NCBI GenBank assembly: GCA_021852265.1
Contig: JAJZNV010000001.1
Coordinates: forward strand, 1 to 34,967
Length of the DNA stretch: 34,967 nt
Direction of reading: 5' to 3'
From: Nanobdellota archaeon
Lineage (GTDB): Archaea; Nanobdellota; Nanobdellia; Parvarchaeales; Parvarchaeaceae
Shown here: piece after piece, positions 6,344 to 11,820 of the stretch
How positions within the stretch are numbered: position 1 is the first letter of the stretch
Layout: every line of letters starts with the position of its first letter
Translations under genes and position numbers: made by a program
Notes under the pieces: model-generated
Database searches by the model: none
What the model was told of the DNA's origin: nothing
Seen by the model: the letters and a program-made list of their open reading frames with translations, nothing else

Positions 6344-6943
6344 CTAACCAGCGGAGCTAGTCAAATTACCATACAAATCGAGTACTTCTCTTCGCAAATG
6401 CTCCGGACAAATGGACAGATACTTGTGTAATTTTTGCTTGTTAAGTTTAGAAAGCAGTCTTTCGATAGTTTCTTTTCTTAGATTTATATTAAAATAAACC
6501 ACGTCTATAAATGTCTTTTCCAGATCTGATACGGGGTAATAAAATAGATTTCCTTTTACCATTGTATACCCAAAGAATAATTTTCGTGGCAACCTGAATA
6601 TGGAAACGTTCGCATTCATAGCCTCTCTTTGTCCGATCCTAACTGTACGTGTGGTCAATATAACAGGGTTTGACCGCTCCTCCCAAATGTTGTAATATGA
6701 TAGCGCATAAGTCAGACCATAGTAAAAAGGTGAAAATGCAAAGCCTATAACCTCTGTGTTACTATATATTGTATAAACGCCCTTGGAGATTTTAAATATT
6801 TTACCTCTTTTTACCATATTATTTATAAACCTCTTAGGGTACGTTTTCCCGGCTCGATTATACAATAGAAACCTGCTGACGTCCTTAACAGAAAAGGCAG
6901 GTGTTTTAGAGAAGTGCTTGAGGAAAAGATTAACGTATTTCAT
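6344..6943 (-). CDS. AbiEi-like antitoxin / transcriptional regulator (wHTH)
   Basis: N-terminal wHTH (SRFLLYNRAGKTYPKRFINNMVKRGKIFKISKGVYTIY); overlaps the upstream nucleotidyltransferase ORF by 14 nt. Confidence 0.8.
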   Translation of the reverse strand: MKYVNLFLKHFSKTPAFSVKDVSRFLLYNRAGKTYPKRFINNMVKRGKIFKISKGVYTIYSNTEVIGFAFSPFYYGLTYALSYYNIWEERSNPVILTTRTVRIGQREAMNANVSIFRLPRKLFFGYTMVKGNLFYYPVSDLEKTFIDVVYFNINLRKETIERLLSKLNKQKLHKYLSICPEHLRREVLDLYGNLTSSAG

Positions 6944-7583
6944 AACGTCTTTTTATATAATCAACGATTTCTGCTATAGTCGGTATAGGTCCATCATAGA
7001 TCAACTGAGTTAATACATTCTCGTCTATTGGTGGCTTCATTTCAGATAAAAATCTGACAACTGGAGGGCGCGTTTTGTCCAGTTTTATAACATGTGTGAG
7101 TATAAAGATGTCATAGATGTCCTTTACGGCTCTTCTGGACTTATACGCGGCGATTTTTTCTGACAGCAATGCTTCTGGTGACAGGGAAAATATATCCATA
7201 CTAGAACCATCAGTTTTGGTGTATGTAGCTAGAACACGGTCCACTATTCGTTTGTGGGAGAACTCCAACGCTATACTGGCACGATCATTTGATACAGCGT
7301 AATACGCGATATACCTCCCGCCCCTACGTATTCTTACATTTTTAACAACTAAGTTATATCGCCTGAGGTTTTCTACAATTTTCTCTATTTCTTTATAATT
7401 TCTTACATACAAATCTAGATCATAGGAAAATCTTTTGCCGCCATAACACCTCCAGATGGATGTGCCACCGTGAAATGTTAATTTAGTATCAATACTATAC
7501 AACCTAGCTATAACCTCATCCTGCAACCGGGCCATTTCTAGGTACTCTTTATTTTTCAGGAGCCCTTCCAGGGGTATATCCAT
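6930..7583 (-). CDS. AbiEii/AbiGii-family nucleotidyltransferase toxin
   Basis: LTFHGGTSIWRCYGGKRFSYDLDLYV matches the nucleotidyltransferase GG[TG]S...D.D motif of AbiEii; DIFSLSPEALLSEKIAAYKSRRAVKDIYDIFIL is the typical downstream segment. Confidence 0.88.
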   Translation of the reverse strand: MDIPLEGLLKNKEYLEMARLQDEVIARLYSIDTKLTFHGGTSIWRCYGGKRFSYDLDLYVRNYKEIEKIVENLRRYNLVVKNVRIRRGGRYIAYYAVSNDRASIALEFSHKRIVDRVLATYTKTDGSSMDIFSLSPEALLSEKIAAYKSRRAVKDIYDIFILTHVIKLDKTRPPVVRFLSEMKPPIDENVLTQLIYDGPIPTIAEIVDYIKRRYEIR

Positions 7584-7604
7584 TGATATTTATGGTCATA
7601 TAAG

Positions 7605-7641
7605 TATATAAACCTAGGTAACAATAATTTGTAACCTACGT
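7605..7641 (-). promoter_or_regulatory. TATA box and overlapping inverted-repeat operator of the AbiE-like operon
   Basis: tatataaa at 7605-7612 (TTTATATA on minus strand) 22-29 nt upstream of the ATG; adjacent inverted repeat acctaggtaacaa (7612-7624) / ttgtaacctacgt (7629-7641), 11/13 matching. Confidence 0.65.
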
Positions 7642-7652
7642 AATTAAAACTG

Positions 7653-7874
7653 TTGCGGTGGGATTATTGTATTGGCAATGCTTTATTAACATCGAGAAAA
7701 TACCTAATACGCTATATTTACTTCATGCTTTCTATCGTACTATACAACTTTTGGGTCCTAATAAATGGACTGCTCATATCCGAGCTAAACCTAAAAGGCG
7801 ACAAGCCGATTTTGTCTGCTAAGGTATTCGATGCGATTCTTTACAAGACAAGAGCACTAGCAGACATTACATGA
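7653..7874 (+). pseudogene. Remnant of a DDE transposase C-terminus
   Basis: RW...LLTSRKYLIRYIYFMLSIVLYNFWVLIN resembles the C-terminal RWxIE...TTSxxxxIRLFxFxxSxxLYNxWVLxN segment of IS4/ISH-like transposases; no catalytic region upstream. Confidence 0.6.
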
Positions 7875-8067
7875 CTTTAGACCAAAATTTTTTGAATTGT
7901 CCTAGTCGCACCTATAATAGAAAGCTAAAAATTTGCTCTTTTCATCGATTCTTATTAAGATCGATTTAAATTCTACTCGGGCGCGGTTCTGAAATCAATG
8001 GATTTATTGAAGATTGGATAAGCCGATTTAGAATCTATTTGGCACTTTGCGCTCTACTGGATTTAAT

Positions 8068-8139
8068 AGCCTCAGGCGAGAATCGCACTCGCGACCTTTT
8101 CCTTACCAAGGAAACGCTCTACTACTGAGCCACTGAGGC
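8068..8139 (-). tRNA. tRNA-Thr (GGT anticodon)
   Basis: Reverse complement GCCTCAGTGGCTCAGTAGTAGAGCGTTTCCTTGGTAAGGAAAAGGTCGCGAGTGCGATTCTCGCCTGAGGCT; anticodon loop TTGGTAA, acceptor GCCTCAG/CTGAGGC. Confidence 0.94.
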
Positions 8140-8290
8140 AGCACCTTACGATTATATATACTCATAAAATTTATTCTATAAAAGTATTCCCAATAACGGT
8201 TTAAACCGCCATTATAAAACGACGTGATGCCGTTGTGAGTATGATATTATAATTATTTATAGTCAAAGTTTTCTATAATTTGGATATTCG

Positions 8291-10978
8291 ATGGAATCCA
8301 AATTGCTCAGTTGCCTGGAAGAGCTCCTAATCGAAACGGGGTACAAAACTTCTGAAACCTCTTTGCCTAAAGAGTCGCCAAAGGACTACGCAGGTAAACT
8401 ATCAAAGCACATTGCCTTCAATTTCGATTTAGCGCCGTTCGGTCAGGGAATACAGGGAATACCCCGCAAAAGAATAATCGAGTTTAGCCAAACCAGCGAC
8501 CAGCTTTTAGAAGCTTATAAGGAAGCTATCACTAGCAGGCGAATTGACTTATTTTATACCGTGTTAATGGCAACGTGCATACCTCCTTCGGATAAGATAT
8601 TCGAAGATTTTTTATCTAATATGATTAAGGACAACGACGTTGAAAACCTTAAAAGATTATGGTATATAGATGAGCTAAACTCTCGTATTTTCTCTAAAAA
8701 CTCTATAAATCCGGCTCTAAAACGCCGTTTAACAACGCTCCTTTACAAAGAATTCATATCGGAGGGCGCAATATCAGAGATTGAGGACTTAATGAGTAGA
8801 ACCAAAAAAAGACCGGCTTTTGACCTTGCACAGGTAAAAGCACTTTATCCAAAAATAGATGCTGGCAGCATAGCAACGTTGTTTTTCATAACTGGACTTA
8901 AGCCGAAGAAGGCAGATGTATGGCGTGCTTATGATTACATGCTGGACAATGAAAGCATGGATACGCTATCAAAGTTCAAAAAACTAGCCAAAATTGGGCG
9001 GTATACTAATAATAAAAAAATCCAGGACTGCTATCGTAGGTTACTTAGCCGGGGCGATTTAAATATTGACTTTTATAAAATTAAACTCTTAAAGGATATT
9101 AGCGGCGTTGCGCCGGAGCCAATGCTTACCACTGATTTGTTTAACGAGCTCTACAGCGAGAATCGGTGGCAGGTGATGGAGACTCTTATTAAGAGTACTG
9201 GGGTAAAACCTGCCTTAGACCCTGAGGAATTAAAATACCGGTTAGTGCAGTTAGAAGGTAGGTATTTTTCTTCATTTGAATTGGATTCGAAGATCCGTAC
9301 GATATTGAAAATACTTGGTGAGAACTTGAATGAAGACGAAATGCAAACGATATACAAACGTTTAATCAAAAGTCGACTGTCTGAGGGATTAAAAAAAATA
9401 GAGGTGTTATCCAGAGAAAGCAAAATAACTCCAAAATTTGATGCCGATTTCCTTCAGAAGGAATACGCCCTCTACCTGAAGCAGGGGTGGTTTACCAGTA
9501 TACCCCTACTAGAGAAAATTACAGGCATACAACCGCTATTTAATGGGTTGGACCTCAGAAGGATATTCCTTAGGACTATTGATAAAGATCTTTCGGAGGA
9601 TTTAAAGGAAGTAACGAATTTTCTAAAGTTAACTGGATACAAGCCAGAGTCGAGCGATGTCCAAGACGAGTATGTGAGACTATTAAACGACCAGTACTTT
9701 AGCTCTATAAACCGGCTCAAAGAAGTTTTAAACATAAAACCTGAATTCACAAGGGAGGAGATAATGGCTGCTATTGAGAAGGAGCTGCTTTTCAGGGATA
9801 GCAATATATCTGAAATTATAGAATGCAGTGGCTATGAATTAAACAGAATAGATGCAGAGCACATCCTACGTGGGGTGGGGGTAGATTCGACAGCGATGGA
9901 TAAAATTGACAATTCGGTCGTTACGCTTATACTAGATAGCATTTCAGACAGAAGGTTGAGCGTGTCCAGGCTAAACAAACTTCTAAGGACGCAGAAACAG
10001 CCGACCAAAATCCTTTATACTAAGGAGAGAGCCTCTGAAAACTCTGATATGGATTTTGGACATAAATTCGGCTCACTCTTAATTAGCTTAGTCAGCAGAA
10101 AACCTGAAAACCTTGAACGGGCTTATAAAATGTTTGGAAAAGACGATTTGGATTATATACGATCGCGCATAGACCGAAAGAAAGTATACTATAATGTCAT
10201 CCATCCAAGACTTGACCTTTTAATGAATGGTGAAGTCAGCGCCTGCGAGAATGCATTTAATGAGATCCATGCCAAATATTTCTTAAGGGAAAGGACCGAC
10301 GTATTGAGTGATCTTGTGGAGATTATAAGGGGGAGCGACAAACCAATCAACAAGATAACCGTTAGAACGTGGGAGAGGGGCATAGAAGACATATTCGACA
10401 ACGGAAAAGTACAAGCTTGTGTTTTCTATCCGAACGGCGGACGTGCTGGTGAACCAGGTGACGTACTGGATTACATAGAGAATCAAAACGTTGAGTTAAT
10501 AGACATGTACTTTAATGGTGAAAAATTAAAGGTCGCTACGGCTATATGTTACAAGACAAAAGATGAGTGCGGGAATAAAGTGCTACTTGTAGATTCCGTT
10601 GAAGCTGGAAAAAATGTCGTTGCAATAGGGCGGCGCAGGTGGATAGACATAATGATGAATGCGATTCGAAACTATTCGAAGGAGAACGATTTCGACTATA
10701 TCTTTGTAAATGACAGCGTAACCGAAGGAAAGGCAACCGATTTTAAAAACAGGATAAAATCTGGGAAGTTAACCAACAATAAGCTGTTTTTCGATGGATC
10801 TTATGTTTACTTAGAGGCGTTTAACCCTAGTAAAGCAGGGTACTATAGTGCCAAAGGTTTCTTATTGAATTTAAAAGAAGGTGTGAAGATAAAAACCATG
10901 TTGCAGCGAGGGGCCTCGAAAGAGGACAAGTCTATGGACGAAGCTCTAATTGACCAGCACTTTGAGGATGAGGAGTAA
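8291..10978 (+). CDS. Large PPR-like alpha-solenoid repeat protein with an uncharacterised C-terminal domain, 895 aa
   Basis: About 10 degenerate repeats of 31-39 aa with consensus [LIV]Q..Y..LL......I..L...TGxKP; C-terminal region VLLVDSVEAGKNVVAIGRRRWIDIMMNAIRNYSKENDFDYIFVN looks like a beta-loop-alpha-beta unit. Confidence 0.75.
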   Translation: MESKLLSCLEELLIETGYKTSETSLPKESPKDYAGKLSKHIAFNFDLAPFGQGIQGIPRKRIIEFSQTSDQLLEAYKEAITSRRIDLFYTVLMATCIPPSDKIFEDFLSNMIKDNDVENLKRLWYIDELNSRIFSKNSINPALKRRLTTLLYKEFISEGAISEIEDLMSRTKKRPAFDLAQVKALYPKIDAGSIATLFFITGLKPKKADVWRAYDYMLDNESMDTLSKFKKLAKIGRYTNNKKIQDCYRRLLSRGDLNIDFYKIKLLKDISGVAPEPMLTTDLFNELYSENRWQVMETLIKSTGVKPALDPEELKYRLVQLEGRYFSSFELDSKIRTILKILGENLNEDEMQTIYKRLIKSRLSEGLKKIEVLSRESKITPKFDADFLQKEYALYLKQGWFTSIPLLEKITGIQPLFNGLDLRRIFLRTIDKDLSEDLKEVTNFLKLTGYKPESSDVQDEYVRLLNDQYFSSINRLKEVLNIKPEFTREEIMAAIEKELLFRDSNISEIIECSGYELNRIDAEHILRGVGVDSTAMDKIDNSVVTLILDSISDRRLSVSRLNKLLRTQKQPTKILYTKERASENSDMDFGHKFGSLLISLVSRKPENLERAYKMFGKDDLDYIRSRIDRKKVYYNVIHPRLDLLMNGEVSACENAFNEIHAKYFLRERTDVLSDLVEIIRGSDKPINKITVRTWERGIEDIFDNGKVQACVFYPNGGRAGEPGDVLDYIENQNVELIDMYFNGEKLKVATAICYKTKDECGNKVLLVDSVEAGKNVVAIGRRRWIDIMMNAIRNYSKENDFDYIFVNDSVTEGKATDFKNRIKSGKLTNNKLFFDGSYVYLEAFNPSKAGYYSAKGFLLNLKEGVKIKTMLQRGASKEDKSMDEALIDQHFEDEE

Positions 10979-11013
10979 CTAAAGTAACTGGATGGATTTC
11001 CGCACGTATTAAG

Positions 11014-11820
11014 TTATCTCCCCGTATTGGATGAGACTAGTGACGCCTCTCTCTTCAATCTTTTTGCGAAATCTTGTAGGGCTTCTATCATCCTTTCCCG
11101 ATACCAAATATGAGGCACTTTACCGGACGGAATGCACCCTAATGGCGTATCCTGCATTTTTATAATGACTGGCTTGAAATTTTCAGGGACATAGTCCACA
11201 CCAGACAACTGCTCATAAACTTCCCAGTCCCATGTGCGGATATGGCGCTCTGAAGAACTGATATCTGCCCCACCATAGTTACCGCCAATTCCCTGCATTA
11301 CTGCCGCACTTAACTCCAGTGTTCCACCGCTCAGTTCATTAAATATCTTGCGTATACCTCGAAGGGTTTCGCAGCTACCTGCATAATCATCGAGTATTGT
11401 CACTTTTGACTTGCCGGTAGGCGCGTTATTCAGAATCTCGGCAACAAGCGGCTTGATGTTTTCTTTGCTTAATCTATAAGCTGAAACATATGGTTTTAAT
11501 CTGTTGCTGAAATATACAAACTTTATCATACCGCCCACTGTCGGCAGGTCTCCGTACAGTTCTCTGTACAGGATTTTTGCAGCCAGGCCGACGAGCCTTC
11601 CTCCACGATCTATTGCTATTATATGGTCCGGACTAGTTTTTCTTATATACTGAACAATCGGAAGTATATAATCTCCGATGTTGTGCCAACTGATTCGCTC
11701 GTAGGCACAGCCGAATGCCGCTCCTGTGCCTCCATGATCATATTGATCCGTGCCCAACTCGTTACTGCGCACTTTTGTATCAAGAAATAATTCTAGAGTG
11801 TTGTCTTTTGCTGAGACCAT
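11014..11820 (-). CDS. Phosphoribosyltransferase-like protein
   Basis: IIAIDRGGRLVGLAAKIL and VTILDDYAGSCETLRGIRK resemble the type I PRTase flank and PRPP-binding loop. Confidence 0.65.
   Translation of the reverse strand: MVSAKDNTLELFLDTKVRSNELGTDQYDHGGTGAAFGCAYERISWHNIGDYILPIVQYIRKTSPDHIIAIDRGGRLVGLAAKILYRELYGDLPTVGGMIKFVYFSNRLKPYVSAYRLSKENIKPLVAEILNNAPTGKSKVTILDDYAGSCETLRGIRKIFNELSGGTLELSAAVMQGIGGNYGGADISSSERHIRTWDWEVYEQLSGVDYVPENFKPVIIKMQDTPLGCIPSGKVPHIWYRERMIEALQDFAKRLKREASLVSSNTGR

Follow-up and report, generated by a model that had tools for sequence, protein, structure and literature searches.

The protein of 895 residues encoded in this stretch is best interpreted, with reasonable though not high confidence, as an effector or adaptor, related to GNAT proteins and targeted by its repeats, that belongs to an uncatalogued, multi-copy accessory family of DPANN archaea. 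A fast-changing α-helical repeat scaffold, predicted here to comprise about 15 hairpins, would serve as the recognition arm, and a slowly changing C-terminal module, made up of a helical linker and a GNAT-fold domain whose cofactor site has been rebuilt, would be the effector. The scaffold would bind one partner, probably a protein, and offer it to the C-terminal module. Our computational results comprise the architecture, the GNAT fold, the loss of the canonical CoA loop, the exchange of scaffolds, the variation in copy number and the association with particular neighbours; the nature of the partner, of the chemistry and of the biological role is inferred.

The gene and its full-length homologues

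The window, by which we mean the whole 34,967-nucleotide stretch that was analysed, is contig C2 of a genome of 0.78 Mb from a DPANN genus of the Parvarchaeota type, and the archaeon carrying the gene is tiny and probably host-dependent. A sequence-only reading had described a single forward-strand ORF of 895 residues at 8291-10978; its exact length was confirmed and all of the segments quoted in that reading are present in the protein. Pfam and NCBIfam scans of the protein gave no usable family, and sequence searches of the PDB gave no match. The full-length AlphaFold model rests on a seven-row alignment and has a mean pLDDT of 76.6 and a pTM of 0.43, while the model of the C-terminal module rests on 22 sequences; the weak points are this full-length pTM and the low model confidence in the region of Cys710. 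The features of the gene and its surroundings are collected in Table 1.

Table 1. Positions of the features in the window, with the evidence for each
Feature	Coordinates	Strand	Evidence
AbiEi antitoxin homologue	6344..6943	-	PADLOC AbiEi 3.5e-15
AbiEii toxin homologue	6930..7583	-	Pfam AbiEii 5.2e-14; PADLOC 3.1e-16
tRNA-Thr (GGT), directly upstream of the 895-residue gene, between it and the AbiE pair	8068..8139	-	ARAGORN
895-residue gene, repeat scaffold and GNAT-fold C-terminal module	8291..10978	+	ORF; full-length homologues
α-Solenoid, aa 69-565, ~15 predicted helical hairpins	8495..9985	+	AlphaFold full length, pLDDT mostly 70-90; Foldseek
Repeat unit, aa 152-178	8744..8824	+	Family repeat profile, 22.2 bits
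Repeat unit, aa 244-276	9020..9118	+	33.0 bits; 14.4 with this protein left out of the model
Repeat unit (second helix), aa 294-311, TGVKP	9170..9223	+	17.4 bits; 15.2 left out
Repeat unit, aa 352-384	9344..9442	+	30.1 bits
Repeat unit, aa 388-418, TGIQP	9452..9544	+	45.2 bits; 26.6 left out
Repeat unit, aa 457-488, NIKP	9659..9754	+	46.6 bits; 26.1 left out
Conserved C-terminal module, aa 573-866 (helical linker aa 589-681 and GNAT-fold domain)	10007..10888	+	22-homologue alignment; AlphaFold pLDDT 83.5, pTM 0.76
GNAT-fold domain, aa 688-860, GNAT strand/helix order, without Q/RxxGxG/A loop	10352..10870	+	AlphaFold, Foldseek, hhalign
Invariant Cys710	10418..10420	+	22 homologues; low-confidence loop of models
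Invariant Tyr728	10472..10474	+	22-homologue alignment
Invariant Asp768-Ser769-x-Glu771, end of strand β4, where GNATs start the CoA loop	10592..10603	+	Alignment, model
Tyr840-Leu841-Glu842 motif (Leu invariant; Tyr and Glu nearly so)	10808..10816	+	22-homologue alignment
Phosphoribosyltransferase-like accessory gene	11014..11820	-	Weak Pfam match, E 0.13

Two further full-length copies were found, a paralogue in the same genome (G000:C15) and a homologue in another genome of the genus (G029), each with 38% identity to the 895-residue protein, and the three can be aligned from end to end. A whole-protein search found the full-length type in only two of the 32 genomes of the family, and the sole match of two pattern scans of genome contigs was the close homologue in JASHWD010000041. 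Conservation is concentrated in the GNAT core (aa 686-823), where identity is 80% to the paralogue and 64% to the G029 copy, compared with 29-32% and 27-33%, respectively, in the remaining regions. Fourfold sites within the core are only 48% (paralogue) and 24% (G029) identical, so that most of the core identity is attributable to constraint and not to recent copying; recent gene conversion homogenizing the modules of the two copies in this genome is not upheld for the same reason.

The paralogue separates lrp from rpl1, two genes that directly adjoin each other in two related genomes (G020 and G010), and it was thus gained or lost as a single gene. On its contig we note an ORF resembling the β subunit of 2-oxoacid oxidoreductases that contains an intein-like stretch (L036 8285-9712; CVSGETKILSVNGL...). 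Beside the G029 homologue, as well as in three other genomes, there is an uncharacterized family of ~495 residues (L007 3278-4765; L036 6729-8210) with a C-terminus that appears vaguely GNAT-like by eye; a profile test of this likeness was not significant. P0004, the neighbour in G029, was considered as a relative on a resemblance by eye and was set aside when hhalign gave no significant match.

The repeat scaffold

The earlier proposal of about ten degenerate units of 31-39 residues was correct as to the presence of repeats but not as to their number: seven units, some of them partial, are supported by a family profile. The units span 29-37 residues, mostly 34, with the consensus xQxxYxxxLxx....LxxxTGIxPxF over ~34 residues. 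This profile gave 23 matches above 5 bits in the three N-termini, compared with 0.02 per shuffled set, and a repeat model built only from the homologues P0002 and P0003 scored 92 bits on residues 1-575 of the 895-residue protein (mean 0.08 and maximum 3.1 bits in 60 shuffles). The repeats are very degenerate, and autocorrelation within this protein alone is no better than that of shuffles (best offset z 2.0), while it is significant in P0002 (offset 34, z 4.1) and in P0003 (offset 32, z 4.7). Matches of the repeat profile to PDB sequences were mostly LRR/internalin stretches, which we take to have arisen by chance.

In the full-length AlphaFold model ~31 helices, or ~15 hairpins, are predicted between residues 69 and 565, and the solenoid is therefore longer than had been recognized from the sequence. 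The proposed helical-hairpin geometry is borne out by this model and by its similarity in Foldseek to PPR/TPR structures; the best matches among solved structures include PPR10, designed PPRs, PPR chains of the plant mitoribosome and NatA.

We also observed the same 34-residue 'TGIKP' repeat in stand-alone proteins of other DPANN genomes (L068 1150-2268, L070 138-1556, L071 1273-2655 and L072 778-1974), among which it also follows a different conserved domain at the N-terminus; these repeats fit no curated family of the PPR type.

The C-terminal module

A non-repeat C-terminus of ~280 residues with a possible GNAT-like core had been noted previously. The non-repeat region is real, extending to ~290 residues, and its relation to GNAT proteins is supported by AlphaFold and Foldseek, by hints from Pfam and by hhalign. 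Residues 688-860 form an α/β domain in which the model shows the GNAT order of elements (β1-α-α-β2-β3-β4-α3-β5-α4-β6-β7), in agreement with Foldseek searches of both the PDB and BFVD. Of the top 50 PDB matches of the module, almost all have the GNAT fold (best E 2.1e-4, probability 1.0; TM normalized by target up to 0.64), led by chains of ICL2 and followed by SpNatD, Naa50, AAC(3) and RimI. The named viral structures matched in BFVD are likewise largely acyltransferases.

At the sequence level, no curated family matches the module above its cut-off. Sequence nevertheless lends independent support: of the Pfam families, Acetyltransf_1 attracts matches from the largest number of members of the module family, five of 22, with a best E of 0.0011. 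Profile comparison by hhalign of the whole-family module with 30 true GNATs from related genomes gave P 3.5e-5, and that of the modules from HEAT-type relatives alone gave P 3.5e-7; a GNAT profile of three sequences was too thin to match the module. In the controls, the reversed profile gave 0.53 and 39 of 40 column-permuted profiles gave at least 0.2, the remaining one being a five-column end artefact. The three close homologues taken alone gave a weak match (P 0.0076), and the case for GNAT ancestry consequently leans on the wider family and on the fold.

Judged by predicted fold and profile homology, although not by the CoA loop, assignment of the module to the GNAT superfamily holds. With Acetyltransf_1 (PF00583) proteins such as RimI, AAC(3) and Naa50 it shares the order of strands and helices, a Foldseek probability of ~1.0 and detectable homology; it differs in the additional helical linker and in the residues described below.

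The acetyl-CoA pyrophosphate loop, Q/RxxGxG/A at β4-α3, is present in 26 of the 30 true GNATs of related genomes but is absent from all 22 members of the module family. The combination of GNAT fold and homology with the lack of this loop indicates that the module is GNAT-derived with a rebuilt cofactor site. Eight columns are invariant in the 22 sequences, which have a mean identity of 32%: Cys710, Tyr728, Ile752, Asp768, Ser769, Glu771, Phe818 and Leu841. Tyr840, Glu842 and Gly856 are nearly invariant. The polar character of several of the invariant residues argues that some function is seated in the cleft, and the Cys, the Tyr and the Asp-Ser-x-Glu motif appear, from the alignment, to mark the rebuilt site.

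Distribution and exchange of scaffolds

Searches with C-terminal profiles reached distant relatives, at first 13, and then 26 of 371 genomes of the phylum. Within the family, 20 of the 32 genomes contain the module according to a 22-row profile (A4), each giving 1-11 hits when fragments at contig ends are counted. In most relatives from the same genus the helical repeats are of another kind, HEAT-like by eye (IGRYeg.AA..., offsets 35/44). Among the distant relatives, the G182 protein has repeats of ~45/41 residues at its N-terminus, and that of G253 has a β-type N-terminal repeat with weak similarity to Bactofilin. A tree of the modules groups them by scaffold type. The combination of one end domain with various repeat scaffolds makes this look like a family of targeting proteins that has not been catalogued. 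One genome (G009; L112, L098 and L113-L118) has ten or more copies or fragments of the module gene, several of them at contig ends, with modules that are up to 97% identical in DNA joined to different repeat arrays.

A second GNAT is associated with the module in six of the seven distant loci that could be assessed. It is fused to the module in G171, is adjacent in G196 and lies on the same strand no more than two genes away in G182, G253, G106 (where the genes overlap) and G217; none was seen at the G143 locus. In each of the genomes concerned the number of Acetyltransf_1 genes is only 2-9. Neither the 895-residue gene nor its paralogue has a GNAT gene beside it, and none was noticed in the same-genus loci that were viewed. 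Two distant module genes (L032 6118-15298 and L086 2281-8604) are flanked on both sides by GNAT-like genes; in L032, the flanking gene on the downstream side additionally gives a weak match to PPDK ATP-binding. In G106 two genes with low-molecular-weight phosphatase domains are found directly upstream of the module gene (L034 5704-8375).

Genomic neighbourhood

The 895-residue gene is part of an accessory stretch (6344-11820) that also contains the AbiEi/AbiEii pair, tRNA-Thr and the phosphoribosyltransferase-like gene, the last of which has no counterpart in any of the other 31 family genomes. The adjacent tRNA-Thr makes it possible that this is an insertion-prone site. An AbiEii gene also adjoins a HEAT-type copy of the module in G018 (L092 2889-3599). 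The idea that the 895-residue gene is a constant part of an AbiE locus was rejected, as the paralogue and most of the relatives have no AbiE genes alongside.

Alternative interpretations

The sequence-only reading had related the repeats to pentatricopeptide repeats, which would make the protein a solenoid that recognizes RNA sequence-specifically and directs a modification enzyme to it. The similarities are appreciable: tandem units with a period near 34 that are predicted to form helical hairpins, a GxKP-like unit end (G-x-x-P) and the presence of PPR structures among the best Foldseek matches. The details point elsewhere. No match at E<=10 was obtained with PF01535, PF13041 or TIGR00756, or with TPR profiles, and among one or two relatives the PPR profiles gave only weak hits (E 0.06-0.17), located in the C-terminal module. 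Within the units, 22-26 residues separate the conserved Tyr from the Pro, whereas the corresponding spacing in PPR units is ~31, so the phasing is different. In the PPR code, position 5 is N/S/T and position 35 is N/D/S; the equivalent of position 5 is L/R/F/K/H in 11 of 11 units and N/S/T in none, so the units do not follow the code. Furthermore, the solenoids of the three full-length proteins have net charges of +3, -6 and -16 and are thus near neutral or acidic rather than basic. Taken together, the profiles, spacing, code positions and charge do not support RNA guidance; on these sequence comparisons we reject membership of the PPR family and consider the RNA-guided reading highly improbable. 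None of the papers searched joined the pentatricopeptide repeat with DPANN, or Parvarchaeota with the HEAT repeat.

A different possibility is that the GNAT-fold domain is catalytically dead and acts only as a ligand sensor or dimerization unit, in the manner of the regulatory domain of Mycobacterium tuberculosis isocitrate lyase 2. The C-terminal domain of ICL2 binds acetyl-CoA and thereby regulates an isocitrate lyase; the present module is placed behind a repeat scaffold. That ICL2 chains are the top Foldseek matches of the module, that the canonical loop has been lost and that a second GNAT is often nearby or fused would all suit such a role. Loss of the loop also makes acetyl-CoA sensing of the ICL2 type doubtful in itself, and invariant Cys, Asp, Glu and Tyr residues would be unexpected in a plain scaffold; we regard a purely regulatory domain as rather unlikely. 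The gene might instead be a conflict gene, either directed against mobile elements or involved in host interaction, with variable recognition repeats and with copies that are gained and lost beside toxin-antitoxin genes and tRNAs. The patchy distribution, the AbiE pair and tRNA-Thr beside this gene, the AbiEii gene in G018, the position of the paralogue between lrp and rpl1, adjoining genes elsewhere, and the near-identical modules with differing numbers of repeats in G009 are in keeping with this. Against it, PADLOC gave no defence-system match for the gene, no integrase was seen beside it, the module family was not found in IMG/VR or in phage or plasmid records, and many copies of the module lie between housekeeping genes. 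A conflict role, which is compatible with the interpretation that we prefer, accordingly seems improbable without being far-fetched.

Proposed role and implications

For the repeat-targeted GNAT-related protein that we favour, two modes of action may be envisaged. The module might transfer an unusual acyl or aminoacyl group by means of the invariant Cys, Asp, Glu and Tyr residues, or it might lack catalysis of its own and form one half of a pair with a true GNAT acetyltransferase, a possibility suggested by the second GNAT that distant relatives carry as a fusion or close by. The NatA complex, in which the helical-repeat scaffold Naa15 is combined with the GNAT Naa10, provides a comparison of working principle only: a helical-hairpin solenoid is likewise joined to a GNAT fold, but here in a single chain that is restricted to DPANN as far as searched, with the GNAT loop lost and no evidence for N-terminal acetylation.

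A broader and more speculative proposal, to which we would give little weight at present, is a DPANN-wide targeting system in which interchangeable PPR-like, HEAT-like and β-type scaffolds are combined with a GNAT-derived effector that has a new active site, works with a second conventional GNAT and is quickly amplified and rearranged between species. Such rapid amplification and rearrangement would be expected for recognition of variable partners, for example host or virus proteins. The occurrence in multiple copies of fast-changing repeat arms with a fixed end module points towards recognition of changing partners.

DPANN genomes as small as this one have few genes to spare, and nonetheless as many as 11 copies or fragments of the family are retained. 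Once the module has a name, annotators can use it to recognize proteins that fall outside every curated family, and its invariant residues, together with the paired GNAT, pose a biochemical question that can be tested.
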